Shown here piece by piece: positions 35,024 through 41,269 of a DNA stretch of 64,000 bases. Source of the DNA: an uncultured Williamsia sp. (lineage in GTDB: Bacteria; Actinomycetota; Actinomycetes; Mycobacteriales; Mycobacteriaceae); contig NZ_CANLWM010000001.1 of assembly GCF_947494875.1 (NCBI RefSeq), forward strand, positions 434,001 through 498,000, in the 5' to 3' direction. Position numbers and translations under genes: made by a program. The notes beneath the pieces were generated by a model. The model was not told the origin of the DNA and did no database searches. It worked only from the letters and a program-made list of their open reading frames with translations. Each line of letters starts with the position of its first letter. The stretch's first letter is position 1.

Positions 35024-35560
35024 TCAGCGAGCCTTCTGAGCCGCTTCCTGCTCGGTGCTTGCGCCGGCGTTCGACAGCTCGCCGGTGTAGCTCTCGAGGT
35101 GGGCACGGACGAACCAGTGGAACTTCTCGAGCTCCGCGGTCTGCCCGATGAGGATGTCCTCGGTCACCGGGTCGAGCTTGCCGGTGGTCTCGATGGCGTC
35201 ACGGTGCGAGCTGATGACGCCGACGTACACGAGGTCGAGCGCACCGAGGTGCGCCTGCACGGTGTCGCGACCGAGGCTGTAGTCGTCCCAGCTGCGGTCC
35301 TCTTCGATCGCCTTCGCGGTGCCCTTCGGCGACGACCCGAGGGTCGCGATGCGCTCGGCGAGCGTGTCGGCGTAGCCGCGCACCAACTCCACCTGCGGGT
35401 CGATCATCTCGTGGACACCGATGAAGTTGGTCCCGACGACGTTCCAGTGGATGTGCTTGAGCGTCAGGTGCAGGTCGTTGAACGCGCTGAGTCGTTCCTG
35501 AAGGGTCGCGACGACGGTGGCCGCGCTGTCCTCGGTGAGTCCTGGTGCTGTGAAAGCCAT
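35024..35560 (-). CDS. dps: Dps/ferritin-like DNA-binding protein
   Basis: 178 aa. The ferroxidase pattern HLTLKHIHWNVVGTNFIGVHEMIDPQVE (about 31-58) has the His, Asp and Glu ligands shared between Dps subunits. Stores iron and detoxifies peroxide; Lys and Arg at the C-terminus (AAQKAR) may bind DNA, as in MsDps. The ATG at 35560 is chosen by alignment to the family. Single gene. Other peroxide-defence gene nearby: catalase at 41.3 kb. Confidence 0.92.
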   Translation of the reverse strand: MAFTAPGLTEDSAATVVATLQERLSAFNDLHLTLKHIHWNVVGTNFIGVHEMIDPQVELVRGYADTLAERIATLGSSPKGTAKAIEEDRSWDDYSLGRDTVQAHLGALDLVYVGVISSHRDAIETTGKLDPVTEDILIGQTAELEKFHWFVRAHLESYTGELSNAGASTEQEAAQKAR

Positions 35561-35739
35561 GTACGCAACGCTAGATACCCAGGGGAAACGTCGACAAGGT
35601 CCTGTCGCGATCGCAACCAGACCGTCGTCGAGATAACGGTTTGATAACGGCCTGGCGTTACCAGGCAGAGATGAAGACGAGACCTCGCCGAGATGTCGCG
35701 GGTGCCCGTCCCGCGACGCGCGCCTGCCAGGCTGTACGC

Positions 35740-35958
35740 ATGACACGCCCCGACAACACCTGGCCGGGACGCTCCTCGTGGGGCCGCCTGGCCCCAGAGC
35801 ACCGCGCCGCGATCGGCACGGTGTTGCTGCTCGCCCTCATGACCTGCCTGTTCATCGTTGCGCTCCCGATGCTGGGATCCATGGTGATCGGCGCGGCGGT
35901 CGTCGCCGCATTCGCCGGTGCCGGCGCGGCCACCCTGTACGTGCTCTCCCGCGACTGA
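35740..35958 (+). CDS. Small two-helix membrane protein
   Basis: 72 aa. A polar N-terminus (about 1-22) is followed by two hydrophobic helices (about 24-46 and 48-67) and a short RD tail. Unknown function; similar tiny proteins are common in Gordonia and relatives. The gene ends four bases before the stop of the minus-strand methyltransferase gene. Confidence 0.55.
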   Translation: MTRPDNTWPGRSSWGRLAPEHRAAIGTVLLLALMTCLFIVALPMLGSMVIGAAVVAAFAGAGAATLYVLSRD

Positions 35959-35962
35959 CCCT

Positions 35963-36571
35963 TCACGGCGGTGGCGCGAGGCCGTCGGCCACCGCCACCG
36001 ACTGCTCGCCGGGCCCGCCGAACACGTCGATCACCACGTCGTCGTCGAGATATCCCGCCATCGGTGATCCCAACGCCTCCCGCAGGGCCGCGTGCACGGC
36101 GTCGCCCGACAGCTCGTGCTCGGGGACCGGGTGTCGGAAATGCACGGCGGCCACCGTCGCACCCGCATCCCGCAGCCCTCGACACCATGCCGTGACCGTC
36201 GCGAGATCCTCGGCGTCGAGGTAGTAGAGCACCTCGCTGACGACGACCAGGTCGTGATGCTCGCGCGGCCGCCAGCGTCGGATGTCGCCCACCTCCACAC
36301 GCACGCGGTCCCCGGCCGACGACAACCGACGCCGCGCGACGTCGACCGCGCGGGGGTGGAGTTCGACGCAGGTCAACCGCTCGCAGCGGTCGAGGAGAGC
36401 AGCGCTCAGCACCCCCGTCGACGACCCCAGCTCCAGCGCGTGCGCGTAGCGACGACGGGGGAGCACGGCGACGGTCAGGTCCCGCTTGCGGTGCTCGTAC
36501 CAGAGATGGTCGAAGCCCCACGGGTCCTCGCCCGCGGCGTACATCGCGTCGAAGTAGGCGGGATCGGTCAT
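35963..36571 (-). CDS. SAM-dependent methyltransferase, NodS-like
   Basis: 202 aa. The N-terminal segment YFDAMYAAGEDPWGFDHLWYEHRKRD is that of NodS-family N-methyltransferases; SAM motif I is ALELGSSTGVLSAAL (about 44-58) and motif II CVELHPRAVDVARRRL. NodS methylates the free amine of deacetylated chitin oligosaccharides in rhizobia. It is the last gene of a coupled run, directly after a PIG-L deacetylase gene (ATGA overlap), which is the same order of chemistry: deacetylate, then N-methylate. Substrate here is unknown. Confidence 0.82.
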   Translation of the reverse strand: MTDPAYFDAMYAAGEDPWGFDHLWYEHRKRDLTVAVLPRRRYAHALELGSSTGVLSAALLDRCERLTCVELHPRAVDVARRRLSSAGDRVRVEVGDIRRWRPREHHDLVVVSEVLYYLDAEDLATVTAWCRGLRDAGATVAAVHFRHPVPEHELSGDAVHAALREALGSPMAGYLDDDVVIDVFGGPGEQSVAVADGLAPPP

Positions 36572-37356
36572 GTGAAGAACAGCTCGGTGTCGGTGACGAG
36601 CCGGGCCAGCACCTCGGGCGGCAGGATCGCCCGATCGGCGGGATCGTCGGACAGATCGCTCACCTGGCTGACGAACCGGGCCACCGCTGTCCGCTTGGCC
36701 TCGACCACCTCGTCGGAGAGGGGGAGCACGCGCGCCCTCGACCAGGGCACCGAGGCGTCGTCGGGCGAGGCCCAGTGCCACATCCACACGGGGTACTCGA
36801 GGTAGACGCTGCCCGCGCCGGCGGCTGCCGTCGCGGCGGCCCAGCCCACGGCGGCGTGATCGGGGTGTCGGTCACCTCGCCACACGCCGACGACGATGTC
36901 GTGACCGCCGAACGTGGCGATCGCGTCGGCGATCTCGACCACCATGTCCTCGGCGTGGTCACCGAGTTCCCCGTCGGGCAACGAGCGGTGCTGGACGTGG
37001 TCGACACCGAGGACGTCGAGTGCGGCGACGAGCTCACCGCGCCGTCGTACGCCCAGCTCGTCGGCGGTGACCGTCGGGGAGCCCGGGTGCGATGCGGCCC
37101 CGTCCGACAGACAGAGCACCGTCACCTCACCGCCGTCACGGATCGTCTGCGCCATCAGGCCGCCGGCTCCCAACACCTCGTCGTCGGGGTGCGCGGCGAC
37201 CACCAGCATCCGGACGGCCGACGCCTGACCGGAATCGTCGGCGTCGAGCACGGGAAAGGACCGGTTCACCAGCCACTCGCGCCACCGCGCCGCCGACGTC
37301 ACCCCCGGATCGGTCCCGCGGAACGCGGGAACCGCACCGTTGCCGGTGCCGCTCAC
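36568..37356 (-). CDS. PIG-L (LmbE-like) deacetylase
   Basis: 262 aa from a GTG. The Zn-binding signature AAHPDDEVLGAGG (about 54-66) and the second metal site RHPDHAAVGWA (about 160-170) mark the PIG-L family, which removes N-acetyl groups from GlcNAc-bearing substrates (for example MshB, Mca, BshB). The N-terminal 45 residues are an extra segment. Overlaps the upstream acyl-CoA-dehydrogenase-like gene (GTGA) and the downstream methyltransferase (ATGA). MshB itself is usually alone, so a different substrate is likely. Confidence 0.87.
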   Translation of the reverse strand: MSGTGNGAVPAFRGTDPGVTSAARWREWLVNRSFPVLDADDSGQASAVRMLVVAAHPDDEVLGAGGLMAQTIRDGGEVTVLCLSDGAASHPGSPTVTADELGVRRRGELVAALDVLGVDHVQHRSLPDGELGDHAEDMVVEIADAIATFGGHDIVVGVWRGDRHPDHAAVGWAAATAAAGAGSVYLEYPVWMWHWASPDDASVPWSRARVLPLSDEVVEAKRTAVARFVSQVSDLSDDPADRAILPPEVLARLVTDTELFFT

Positions 37357-38342
37357 CGTCGGCCGTCCGGGTCGGCGACAAGGTCGCCGAGTGCGGCGAG
37401 GTCGTGGTCGGCGTGGGACTGGCGGATGTACACGGTGAGGTCCGCGGTCGCCGCGGCATGATCGGCTTCGGCCACCATCGGCCCCGGACCGAGCGCCCGC
37501 CCCGCGCGATCGAGCACCGCGGTCGCCACACCCTCGATCACCGCACGCGTCCGCAGCGCCGTGACGTGAGCGACCGCTCCGTCCTCCGGGTCACGGTCAA
37601 CGGCGGCCGCCGCCGCGGCCAACGCGGCATGTCCCGTCCACAGCGCCGTGTCGACGGCGCCGAGGTGCGCACGGGTCACCGGGTCGTCCCGCCGCGTCCT
37701 GCGGACCCGGTCCCCGACCGCACGCGCCCCGCCGAGCCAGCACGCGGCCACCCCGATCGCGCCGTGCCAGAAGCCGGAGCGCTCGAAGTAGTCGGCCCCG
37801 CTACCGACGCGCCGCGCCGGTGTGTCGTCGAATCGGACGGATCGCGTCATCGTCGCTGCCATCCCGGGCGAGTACCACGCATCGGGGCCGATCGAACCCC
37901 CGCCGTTCCGGGCGAGGTCGACCGCGAAGAGCGCCCGTTCGCCGTCGACCCACGCCGTGACGAGGGCGTGGCTGCAGCCGACGGCTCCCGAGCACCATGC
38001 CTTCACGCCGTCGAGGAACCACCGACCGTCACGCCGCGTGGCGGACACCCGTCCGTCCGGCGCCTCGGCCGCCCACACTCCCCACAGCTCACCGGGCCCG
38101 GGCGAACCGACACCGAGGTCGGCGAGGATCTGCTCGGCGTCGACGTGCGCCTCGACGAGCCGGCCGGTCGGGATGTCGTCACGAGCGATGTCGGCGAGCG
38201 CGTCGAGACGTTCACGGGTCCGACCCGAGCCCGGCGCGGGCAGGCGGAGTCCGGAGACGACGGCGCGCGCTCGCGTCACCGCGTCGGCATCCGCGTCCGG
38301 TGCAATGGCGGTCCGGTCCGCACCCGTCACCCAGGCGATCAC
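37353..38342 (-). CDS. Acyl-CoA-dehydrogenase-like protein
   Basis: 329 aa from a GTG. The middle domain LGVGSPGPGELWGVWAAEAPDG and GRWFLDGVKAWCSGAVGCSHALVTA aligns with the FAD-binding region of acyl-CoA dehydrogenases. The N-terminal helical domain and C-terminal helices are short, and the usual C-terminal YEG catalytic Glu motif is not seen; the end reads RQSHADHDLAALG. It may be a divergent dehydrogenase or flavin monooxygenase-type member. Coupled on both sides (GTGA), to the GT2 and the PIG-L genes. Confidence 0.75.
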   Translation of the reverse strand: MIAWVTGADRTAIAPDADADAVTRARAVVSGLRLPAPGSGRTRERLDALADIARDDIPTGRLVEAHVDAEQILADLGVGSPGPGELWGVWAAEAPDGRVSATRRDGRWFLDGVKAWCSGAVGCSHALVTAWVDGERALFAVDLARNGGGSIGPDAWYSPGMAATMTRSVRFDDTPARRVGSGADYFERSGFWHGAIGVAACWLGGARAVGDRVRRTRRDDPVTRAHLGAVDTALWTGHAALAAAAAAVDRDPEDGAVAHVTALRTRAVIEGVATAVLDRAGRALGPGPMVAEADHAAATADLTVYIRQSHADHDLAALGDLVADPDGRR

Positions 38343-39061
38343 GCGGTGCCCGGCAGCTCGATGATGTCGGCCAGCGCGTCGGCGAAACCCGCCGGTGCCC
38401 TGCCCACCCGACGGGTGGAGGTCGCGACCGGCGCCTCGGTGTCCCACGCGATGCTGTGCCCGGCCGCGTCGAGTGCCGAGACCAGCGCGACGTCCTCGTC
38501 CGATCGCACGCCCGCGAACCCGCCGACCCTGGCATAGGCGGCGGCCCGGACCCCGATGTTCGCGCCGTGGACGTGGCCGTGGCGGTCGCGTCGTTGCTCG
38601 GCGCGGTAGTCGGCGAGGAACAGACGCTCGGCGTGGACCGGCCACTGCGTCCAGTCCCGCGCGACGACCGTGCCCACCACGGCGTCGGCACCGGCATCGG
38701 CGAGCCACAGGTGGCGACGCAGCCAGTCCCGGGGCACTCGGGAGTCGGCATCGGTGGTCGCGAACCACACGTCGTCACCCGCGGGATGTCGCAGGAAGCC
38801 TGCGCGCCGCGCGGCTCCGACGTTGCGGACGTCGACGACCGTCACGTCGATGTCGGGACCCGGGATGGACGCCGAGGCGTCCGAGCACGCGTCGAGGACG
38901 ACGGTGACACTCACGGGGATGTCCACCGCGGCGATCGCCTCGGCCACCGCAGCGAGGGACCCGCCCAACTCGTCCGCCTCGTCGTGGACCGGTATCACCA
39001 CGACCGCACTGGAGATCCTCGTCCGCGAGGACCCGCTCCCGGGCACAGAACCCTCAGCCAT
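38339..39061 (-). CDS. Family 2 glycosyltransferase
   Basis: 240 aa. GT-A fold: VVVIPVHDEADELGGSLAAV (about 19-38), a TTDADSRVP metal-binding DxD-type motif (about 104-112), and GGFAGVRSDEDVAL with the catalytic ED. There is no membrane helix, so it acts in the cytosol or at the membrane face. Transfers a sugar from a nucleotide or lipid donor; the acceptor is unknown. The start overlaps the HAD gene by eight bases and its stop overlaps the next gene (GTGA). Confidence 0.85.
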   Translation of the reverse strand: MAEGSVPGSGSSRTRISSAVVVIPVHDEADELGGSLAAVAEAIAAVDIPVSVTVVLDACSDASASIPGPDIDVTVVDVRNVGAARRAGFLRHPAGDDVWFATTDADSRVPRDWLRRHLWLADAGADAVVGTVVARDWTQWPVHAERLFLADYRAEQRRDRHGHVHGANIGVRAAAYARVGGFAGVRSDEDVALVSALDAAGHSIAWDTEAPVATSTRRVGRAPAGFADALADIIELPGTA

Positions 39062-39722
39062 AGAGCGATGAGTGCGCGAGGAGGTCGGCCGCGTCGCGGT
39101 ACGTCTCGTCCGCGCCCGCCTCGCGGAGTTCCGCCGCACCGATCCCGCCCGAGCACAGCCCGATCCCGCGGACCCCCAGCGGGCTCGCCGCCAGGAAGTC
39201 CCACGTGGCGTCACCGACCATCACCGCGGCGGACGCCGGCACCCGCGCGCGTCCGAGGGCGATGTCGACGACGGTCCCGTCCGGCTTCGCCGTCGTGACA
39301 TCCTCCGACGAGGTCACCGCGTCGACGAGGTCGTCGACGTCGAGGAGCGCTCGCAGGGCCTTCAGCTCGTGCTCGGGTGCCGACGTCGCCAGGACCACGG
39401 TGTAACCGCGATCCTTGCTGGCGCGCACCAACTCCCGTGCACCGGGCAGGACGGTGAGCTGGTCGATGCCGTCGCCGTAGAGCTCGTCGTGCGCCGACGA
39501 CAACGCCGAGGTCAGCTCGTCGTCGTCCCGGTCACCCCCGGCGATCTCGACGAGTTCGGCCACCAGCAACCCGCCGTCCTTGCCGATGCGTATGTGGATC
39601 TCGCTGTGCGGCACCGAGAGTCCGTGCCGGCGGAACGCCGACCACCAGGCGGTCACGTGGGCGTAGACGGAATCGACGAGGGTGCCGTCGATGTCGAACA
39701 GGACCGCCTGGACGCGGTTCAC
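39054..39722 (-). CDS. HAD-superfamily phosphatase, PGP-like
   Basis: 222 aa from a GTG. HAD motif [17 protein letters not shown] (about 7-22), motif [11 protein letters not shown] and motifs III/IV in [10 protein letters not shown] and [12 protein letters not shown]. The helical cap is of the phosphoglycolate phosphatase/beta-phosphoglucomutase type, so it may dephosphorylate a sugar phosphate. Within the run it lies between catalase (GTGA overlap) and the GT2 gene (8-base overlap); a sugar-phosphate substrate would fit. Confidence 0.87.
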
Positions 39723-41269
39723 ACCCGGGCGCGCATGGACTCACGCGCGGGGTTGTCCTGCTCGCCCGCCTTGGGGTCGTCCTGGTCGGACTTCTCCGCG
39801 ACACCCTCGGCGATCGCCGACCCGACGTCGGGATCGATCCGACGCCAGTACTCGAGGGCACGCTCGAGGACCGCCGCGGACACCCCGTTGAGCAGGTGGC
39901 CGACCACGTTGTCGACCAGGCGCTCACGAGCTTCGTCGTCCATCACCTCACGGACGAGCGCACCCGCTTGTCCGAAGTCGTCGTCGGCGGGGTGATCGAC
40001 GTAGGCGCTGCGGACGATCTCCCCGTCGGCCGCCCAGCCGGGGTCCAGCCCGGGCGGCGGGTCGGCGTGCGGACCGCCGTAGGAGTTGGGTGCGTACACC
40101 GGATCGCTCACGGGCTGCACGCGCATCGCACCGTCCTTGGAGTAGCTGTGCGTCGGCACCGTCGGCGCGTTCACCGGCACCTGCTTGTAGTTCGCCCCGA
40201 TCCGGTAGCGGTGAGCATCGGAGTAGGCGAACGACCGCGCCAGCAGCATGCGGTCCGGGCTCAGCCCGATCCCGGGCACGAGACTGTTCGGCTCGAACGC
40301 CGCCTGCTCGATCTGGGTGTGGTGGTCGGTCGGGTTGCGGTTCAACGTGAGTCGACCGACCTCGCGGAGCGGGTAGTCGTCGTGTGGCCACACCTTGGTG
40401 AGGTCGAAGGGGTTGTACCGGTAGGACGTCGCGTCGTCGTAGGGCATCAGCTGCACCTTGAGCGTCCACGACGGGTGATCCCCGGAATCGATCGACTCGT
40501 ACAGGTCACGCGTGTGGTAATCGGTGTCGGCGGAGGCCATCTGGTCTGCCTCGTGCTGCGTGAAGCACTCGATGCCCTGGTCGGAGATGAAGTGGTACTT
40601 CACCCAGTGCTTGACGCCGTGGGCGTTCTCCCAGAGGTAGGTGTGCGACGAGTAGCCGTTCATGTGGCGCCAGGTGCGCGGGATGCCGCGATCGCCCATC
40701 AGCCACGTGACCTGGTGCGCGGATTCCGGCGACAGCGTCCAGAAGTCCCACTGCATGTCGTGGTCGCGAAGGTTGTTGTCGGCGCGACGTTTCTGCGAGC
40801 GGATGAAATGTTGAAACTTCATCGGGTCTTTGATGAAGAAGATCGGCGTGTTGTTGCCGACCATGTCGTAGTTGCCCTCGCGGGTGTAGAACTTCAGCGC
40901 GAAACCGCGCGGGTCCCGCCACGTGTCCGGGCTGCCACGCTCGCCGGCGACGGTGGAGAACCGGGACAGCACCTCGGTCTGCTCACCGGGCGAAAAGACT
41001 GCGGCGCAGGTGAACTCGGTGACATCCTCGGTGGTCTCGAACACACCGAACGCGCCACTGCCCTTCGCGTGCGGTTGGCGCTCCGGTATGCGCTCCCGAT
41101 TGAACTGCGCCATCTGCTCGATGAGGTAGTGGTCGTGCAGGACGATCGGTCCACCCGCTCCCACGGTGAGCGAGTGCTCGTCGCTGGGTGCCGGAGCGCC
41201 GGAATCGGTGGTGGTGCGTGGAGTCGACGAATGCTCAGAAGAGCGGTCGACGGCAGGATTCGAGGTCAT
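39719..41269 (-). CDS. katA: Monofunctional heme catalase
   Basis: 516 aa small-subunit (clade 3) catalase that dismutes H2O2. The distal His67 is in [13 protein letters not shown], the Asn is in [11 protein letters not shown] (about 140), and the proximal heme-ligand Tyr is in [12 protein letters not shown] (about 349). The N-terminal 35 residues are a Ser/Thr-rich extension. The 101-base gap to the divergent GAF-ANTAR gene must hold its promoter. Its stop overlaps the HAD gene (GTGA), so it heads the downstream run. Confidence 0.95.

Follow-up and report, generated by a model that had tools for sequence, protein, structure and literature searches.

A recurrent GT2, acyl-CoA-dehydrogenase-fold, PIG-L and NodS-like gene cassette and its possible role in making an N-methylated amino-sugar stress product

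Introduction

Nod-factor synthesis, in which NodC, NodB and NodS supply a family 2 glycosyltransferase (GT2), an N-deacetylase and a methyltransferase, and mycothiol synthesis, which uses sugar transfer and PIG-L-type deacetylation, are the described systems closest to the locus considered here. Among individual enzymes, diacetylchitobiose deacetylase is a chitin-catabolic member of the PIG-L family, while the nitrososynthases KijD3 and DnmZ, flavin monooxygenases with the acyl-CoA dehydrogenase (ACAD) fold, act on amino sugars. The locus lies in a 64,000-nucleotide stretch of DNA from an uncultured Williamsia sp. (contig NZ_CANLWM010000001.1, positions 434,001 to 498,000; hereafter the window, in whose coordinates positions are given) and contains a cassette of genes for a GT2, an ACAD-like protein, a PIG-L deacetylase and a NodS-like methyltransferase on the minus strand. 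Judged from sequence comparisons, the cassette may be a portable stress-island unit that makes an N-methylated glucosamine-type glycoside (probability about 0.55).

The original prediction, made from the sequence of the window, described a minus-strand run of overlapping genes that includes a catalase. This run is borne out by the DNA coordinates and by Pfam. Across positions 35963-41269, the overlaps are 4 bp for catalase/HAD, 8 bp for HAD/GT2 and 4 bp each for GT2/ACAD, ACAD/PIG-L and PIG-L/methyltransferase. The coupled gene run is real, and its recurrence beyond chance across genera and phyla is confirmed. The prediction also named no assigned product, and among the open-access papers listed, subscription papers not being covered, no description of the cassette was recognized.

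A Conserved Gene Unit

The GT2, ACAD-like, PIG-L and methyltransferase genes form a true conserved unit. Of 396 evenly sampled Actinomycetota genomes, 52 have the ACAD-like gene (E ≤ 1e-10) and 49 the methyltransferase gene (E ≤ 1e-25). The two occur together in 46 genomes versus 6.4 expected if independent, a figure uncorrected for relatedness, and one family (f32) supplies 24 of the 52 ACAD-positive genomes. The starts of all 46 pairs are at most 1.72 kb apart. Six genomes harbor the ACAD-like gene without the methyltransferase and three the methyltransferase without the ACAD-like gene; the ACAD matches of G176 and G344 (~3e-11) are no stronger than a second hit in the genome of the window and may be ordinary ACADs.

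A first sample of 60 relatives plus the window yielded the ACAD-like gene in 31 of 61 genomes (weakly in G031), and blastp with the window proteins found both PIG-L and methyltransferase in 21 of 30 loci (L007-L036, with 1.5 kb flanks, some shorter). A scan of named genomes covered the best 80 of 475 confirmed relatives and is hence biased to close ones, with 7 of the 80 near a contig end. By profile searches, all four genes are found near the ACAD-like gene on the same strand in 55 of these loci, the ACAD-like, PIG-L and methyltransferase genes without the GT2 in 10, and fewer genes in 15. The position of the GT2 varies, being upstream in, e.g., Rhodococcus and Mycobacterium and downstream in, e.g., Streptomyces and Pseudomonas. 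Comparison of neighborhoods across the Actinobacteria, the check suggested with the original prediction for its four-gene order, finds the genes grouped rather than scattered.

Mycobacterium loci L047, L054, L057, L062, L073, and L096, loci L130 and L131 of the same family, and L070 harbor the ACAD-like gene with or without PIG-L, and none of them has a methyltransferase by profile. L070 contains methyltransferase-like pieces ~4 kb apart. The cassette may be decaying in these loci.

Probable Deacetylation and N-Methylation

The PIG-L gene (36568-37356, minus strand) scores 95.3 bits in Pfam against a cut-off of 28.2, which confirms that the deacetylase in the window is of a family unrelated to the Nod-factor type, as had been predicted. 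Its HPDDE and HxDH motifs are intact and do not vary across the 27 rows aligned. When compared with solved relatives, the PIG-L profile scores 81.6 bits with diacetylchitobiose deacetylase, 78.2 with TT1542, 59.2 with BshB1, and 51.8-53.8 with MshB entries.

The strongest evidence for the role of PIG-L in this setting is its replacement by an unrelated deacetylase family beside the same partners. Locus stretches of up to ~20 kb were fetched for 40 of the other 51 ACAD-positive Actinomycetota genomes. PIG-L is part of the set in 21 of these loci and a CE4 polysaccharide deacetylase stands in its place in 16; no locus has both, and in three (L139, L150, and L151) neither was found in a search limited to the PIG-L profile and one CE4 query. 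The CE4 loci (L152-L167) come from 15 of the 24 genomes in f32 and from the single genome in f23, have the CE4 gene upstream of the ACAD-like gene, and form one clade in the ACAD tree (100/100; midpoint root). Of the 16 CE4 proteins, the four that were scanned match Polysacc_deac_1 at 80-92 bits; in NCBIfam, three CE4 proteins score highest with the NodB model (107-116 bits), under the cut-off of 240. A single methyltransferase from these loci (L160) was scanned, and it is NodS-like (73.6 bits).

A ferredoxin-reductase-like flavoprotein is encoded after the methyltransferase in 14 of the 16 CE4 loci, the other two ending at contig ends, and such a reductase-like gene is seen only in this Rubrobacter-type variant of the set. 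The order of the variant is NodB-like CE4, ACAD, NodS-like methyltransferase, ferredoxin-reductase-like flavoprotein, and GT2 (L207, 6919-11570). An annotated Rubrobacter indicoceani plasmid has the same gene order as the CE4 loci, whose family is probably Rubrobacteraceae. The predicted logic of deacetylation followed by N-methylation fits the swap in 16 of 16 fetched Rubrobacter-type loci.

The methyltransferase (35963-36571, minus strand) is a NodS-like, S-adenosylmethionine-dependent enzyme by Pfam (NodS, 57.8 bits, cut-off 24), with an NCBIfam score under the NodS equivalog cut-off (75.2 versus 300 bits). Its profile matches PDB entry 4isc at 234.5 bits, NodS (3ofj) at 105.9, and then phospho(methyl)ethanolamine methyltransferases at 51.3. 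By this similarity, 4isc, which carries the label "Methyltransferase" and nothing more specific in the search output, is evidently an orthologue of the cassette enzyme.

Distribution and Stress-Gene Context

The cassette spans at least four phyla (Actinomycetota, Pseudomonadota, Deinococcota, and Cyanobacteriota) and also occurs on plasmids. With the window ACAD-like protein as the query, tblastn finds 31 plasmid records, 19 of them from Acinetobacter, and with the Roseivivax ACAD (E ≤ 1e-5) it finds 54; among the matches listed for the latter, at least 28 plasmid records have at least 80% query cover, at least 13 are from Sulfitobacter, and at least 8 are from Deinococcus. Twenty-four chosen plasmid stretches were fetched, of which two lack gene annotation of the region and 19 annotated ones precede the last three Deinococcus records. 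In these 19, otsA, otsB or glgE is present in six (two Acinetobacter, two Comamonas, Legionella, and Cupriavidus) and a catalase in six (two Acinetobacter, Cupriavidus, Roseivivax with a manganese catalase, Sulfitobacter, and Novosphingobium), counts that come without a computed chance baseline.

The arrangement differs from one plasmid record to another. Both Comamonas records have the cassette between otsA and otsB, the Cupriavidus PIG-L is encoded past the catalase and on the opposite strand, and the Bradyrhizobium stretch has Ku and LigD (non-homologous end joining, NHEJ) nearby. By profiles, the Nostoc stretch, one of the two without annotation, has the ACAD-like, PIG-L, and methyltransferase genes in order and the GT2 on the other strand. 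In Komagataeibacter (L213), the cassette is near a general stress protein gene.

In Pseudomonas, 18 of 18 loci among the best 80 relatives have treY and glgX upstream of the cassette and in the same orientation. treZ is there too in 17, and the 18th ends at its contig end. The genes were named from their Pfam domains and from the order in PMC4636370, where the tabulated Pseudomonas putida cluster comprises glgA, treY, malQ, treZ, an unnamed gene, glgX, a hypothetical gene, and an autotransporter, and where the cassette does not appear in that table. A second, divergent PIG-L gene is found after the cassette in 14 of the 18 Pseudomonas loci (among L081-L122).

Within Actinomycetota, two of the 46 genomes with both the ACAD-like and methyltransferase genes have truncated loci, and the search covered the other 44. 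In three of these (window included), the ACAD-like gene has a heme catalase at a distance of at most 5 kb, versus 0.15 expected within 10 kb, and in a fourth the distance is 9.95 kb; 23 of the 44 are without any heme catalase. A heme catalase is similarly close in 5 of 20 of the 31 ACAD-positive relatives (window included), versus 0.12 expected, in a sample that shares genomes with the 44. Gene context of this kind points to stress metabolism rather than signaling.

In four of five Deinococcus plasmid loci (L206, L208, L217, and L218), the ACAD-like protein carries an additional fused domain of ~400 residues at its N-terminus. A profile of the four domain sequences matches GH1 beta-glucosidases (E = 6e-7), while a single sequence gives no PDB match and the Pfam matches are all sub-cut-off. 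This fusion links the ACAD-fold protein to a sugar substrate. In Deinococcus radiodurans (L206), PIG-L and the methyltransferase are separated by a helicase gene on the opposite strand.

In the window, the heme catalase (39719-41269, minus strand; PF00199, 600.5 bits) is the first gene of the overlapping run and the sole PF00199 match in the 4.77 Mb genome; its best NCBIfam model is HPII, with a score under the cut-off. It is followed by the HAD-IA phosphatase-like gene (39054-39722, minus strand; Pfam HAD-type Hydrolase, 91.4 bits). Among the NCBIfam matches listed for the six proteins of the run (25 of 43 in the case of the HAD protein), the HAD protein passes two general HAD-IA subfamily models, and beyond those none meets its cut-off. 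A Dps-like ferritin (35024-35746 by open-reading-frame bounds, start uncertain; minus strand) is the next gene downstream of the methyltransferase on the same strand.

Of the seven other same-genus genomes that were searched, six have the ACAD-like gene. The order HAD, GT2, ACAD, PIG-L, methyltransferase, Dps, lipid kinase, and flavin adenine dinucleotide (FAD) oxidase is kept in all five fully flanked loci (L186-L190), so the place of the HAD gene is conserved within the genus; the sixth locus is ended by a contig end and stands outside the five. The catalase and a neighboring GAF-ANTAR gene adjoin the cassette in two of the five (L186 and L187). In L193, from another genus, a catalase immediately precedes the GT2, and no HAD gene was found.

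Proposed Pathway

In the first step of the proposed pathway, the GT2 would move an N-acetylamino sugar, most likely N-acetylglucosamine (GlcNAc), to an acceptor, and a phosphate may be trimmed by the HAD phosphatase encoded in this genus. PIG-L would then strip the N-acetyl group, a step supported by the intact motifs and by the NodB-like replacement. Going by NodS, its nearest characterized relative, the methyltransferase would methylate the freed amine, and the ACAD-fold protein, to which the original prediction assigned no role, would finally oxidize the product or an intermediate.

The overlap with catalase in the window, together with the Dps, trehalose, and NHEJ neighbors elsewhere, suggests synthesis under oxidative or desiccation stress. 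Because the cassette recurs in trehalose and catalase islands of unrelated bacteria, Deinococcus and Rubrobacter included, its product is perhaps a stress molecule and may be one that has gone unrecognized. A more specific and improbable version is that the ACAD-fold enzyme is an N-oxygenase that converts an N-methyl amino sugar to an N-hydroxy-N-methylamine or nitrone, a sugar-borne radical trap. If so, it would represent a new class of small-molecule antioxidant, made alongside catalase and trehalose by bacteria that tolerate drought and radiation.

Alternative Functions

A possible, though rather unlikely, alternative is modification of an envelope glycan or glycolipid, in which the sugar is added to a lipid- or polymer-linked acceptor and is then deacetylated and N-methylated, with no free soluble metabolite. 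The Novosphingobium locus has three glycosyltransferases in addition to the cassette's own, Deinococcus gobiensis has a second glycosyltransferase and a UDP-galactopyranose mutase, and a 546-residue Rubrobacter protein is weakly similar to arabinofuranosyltransferases (34.2 bits versus a cut-off of 1050). However, such extra glycan genes are missing from many loci, and the five window proteins have at most one hydrophobic 19-residue segment above 1.6 between them (signal peptides were not tested). That segment (1.94 at residue 38) is in the GT2; maxima in the other four are at most 1.33. The GT2 (38339-39061, minus strand; Glycos_transf_2, 37.6 bits, cut-off 23.3) is a small protein of 240 residues, in which D57, D104, D106, E189, and D190 are invariant in 28 aligned rows, and its predicted model has a GT-A fold (predicted local distance difference test, pLDDT, 92.8); the acidic residues usual for such enzymes are present.

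It is unlikely that the ACAD-like protein (37353-38342, minus strand) is a true acyl dehydrogenase and that the product has an unsaturated acyl chain. The fold of the predicted model (pLDDT 89.2) is clearly that of an ACAD, with Z scores of 27-29 to acyl-CoA dehydrogenases; Z scores are alike for DszC/TdsC, and Foldseek places DszC, MsuC, and KijD3 among the top ranks. In Pfam, however, the protein matches Acyl-CoA_dh_M alone, at 24.9 bits and under the cut-off of 33.3, and it is absent from the PF00441 acyl-CoA dehydrogenase matches of its own genome, of which there are 55. In a midpoint-rooted tree, 51 cassette ACADs separate from nine ordinary ACADs of the window genome, and the window protein is assigned to a divergent clade of ACAD-fold flavoprotein-like proteins. 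The usual catalytic glutamate position is occupied by Gln308 in 129 of 131 cassette rows, the other two showing a Glu and a gap; some genomes contribute two rows. An alignment with Deinococcus, Rubrobacter, and alphaproteobacteria added has Gln there in each of its 31 cassette rows. Residue 308 was mapped by sequence alignment and by counting back from the aligned structural C-terminal ends, using the catalytic Glu numbers of the reference ACAD structures. With the usual glutamate missing, classical acyl-CoA dehydrogenation is unlikely, and the unit in the window has no acyltransferase. On this sequence evidence, assignment as a canonical acyl-CoA dehydrogenase is disfavored.

Synthesis of a thiol-type redox buffer such as mycothiol or bacillithiol is improbable. 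A glycosyltransferase with PIG-L, and in this genus a phosphatase, does resemble the set MshA, MshA2, and MshB, and the catalase neighbors suggest redox stress. Yet the unit as annotated has no cysteine ligase, and the window PIG-L is under the cut-offs for MshB (31.7 versus 224.35 bits), Mca (25.9 versus 277.15), BshB1 (61.4 versus 182.5), and BshB2 (47.6 versus 195.25), whereas true MshB (361.5 bits) and Mca (512.1) are encoded on other contigs of the same genome. These scores speak against MshB-type mycothiol synthesis, which the original prediction had named as an example that would refute it, and mycothiol or bacillithiol synthesis is rejected as the function of the cassette.

That these are co-transcribed stress genes sharing no pathway would fit their frequent proximity to catalase, Dps, trehalose or NHEJ genes, but is very improbable given their tight co-occurrence, the recurrence of the ACAD-PIG-L-methyltransferase order across phyla, and the exchange of PIG-L for another deacetylase family beside the same partners.

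Several observations weigh against a stress-island cassette that makes an N-methylated glycoside. At least one of the four genes is missing in 25 of the 80 scan loci. Methylobacterium (L209) has the ACAD-like gene alone, with the other three not annotated within 8 kb, and in five Deinococcus loci PIG-L adjoins the ACAD-like gene in four, with a methyltransferase near in three and a GT2 in two. No ACAD match was found in G003, one of the seven same-genus genomes, and the catalase is missing from the fetched stretch in three of the five complete same-genus loci, in whose genomes the single catalase is located elsewhere. otsA is near the cassette in 1 of the 44 Actinomycetota genomes (~0.2 expected); a trehalose link inside Actinomycetota is thus unsupported, and the linkage is mainly proteobacterial in these data. 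The nearest structures to the GT2 handle fucose, mannose, GlcNAc, and others, making the donor unreadable from the fold. Finally, Gln308 alone is suggestive and would not exclude dehydrogenation. The same column in 12 ordinary ACADs of the window genome has Glu in seven and Ala or Gly in five. Some true ACADs carry the catalytic Glu elsewhere, as may be the case in these five.

Comparison with Known Systems

The cassette ACAD shares its fold with the flavin monooxygenases DszC and MsuC and the nitrososynthases KijD3/DnmZ, but is only 16-20% identical to them, and its Z scores for them are tied with those for ordinary ACADs. Group D monooxygenases of this fold oxygenate their substrates with reduced flavin supplied by a reductase. 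Diacetylchitobiose deacetylase belongs to the PIG-L family and is the closest solved relative of the cassette PIG-L profile; unlike the cassette enzyme, it is not known from such a gene set. Mycothiol synthesis by MshA and MshB has sugar transfer and PIG-L deacetylation in common with the cassette, which has a methyltransferase and an ACAD-fold protein in place of the ligase and acetyltransferase.

The literal Nod-factor pathway is ruled out by the GT2, the deacetylase family, and the score cut-offs. NodC-type chitin synthase is a membrane enzyme. In contrast, the cassette GT2 is small and, by length and hydropathy, without NodC-like membrane segments, and the predicted building of a GlcNAc chain thus finds no support. 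The cassette proteins miss the NodS and NodB equivalog cut-offs, and a NodA search of the window genome gave no match, although its control also matched nowhere. The cassette further differs in its PIG-L, its extra ACAD-fold protein, and its stress-gene context.

What the two systems share is a GT2, an N-deacetylase, and a NodS-like methyltransferase encoded together, with a NodB-like CE4 enzyme in the Rubrobacter-type variant. The analogy by which the cassette resembles the NodB-NodS portion of Nod-factor synthesis in its working, outside that pathway, is partly supported. A Nod-factor-like enzyme set that spans at least four phyla and occurs on plasmids and close to trehalose or catalase genes would point to a common, as yet unnamed stress metabolite.

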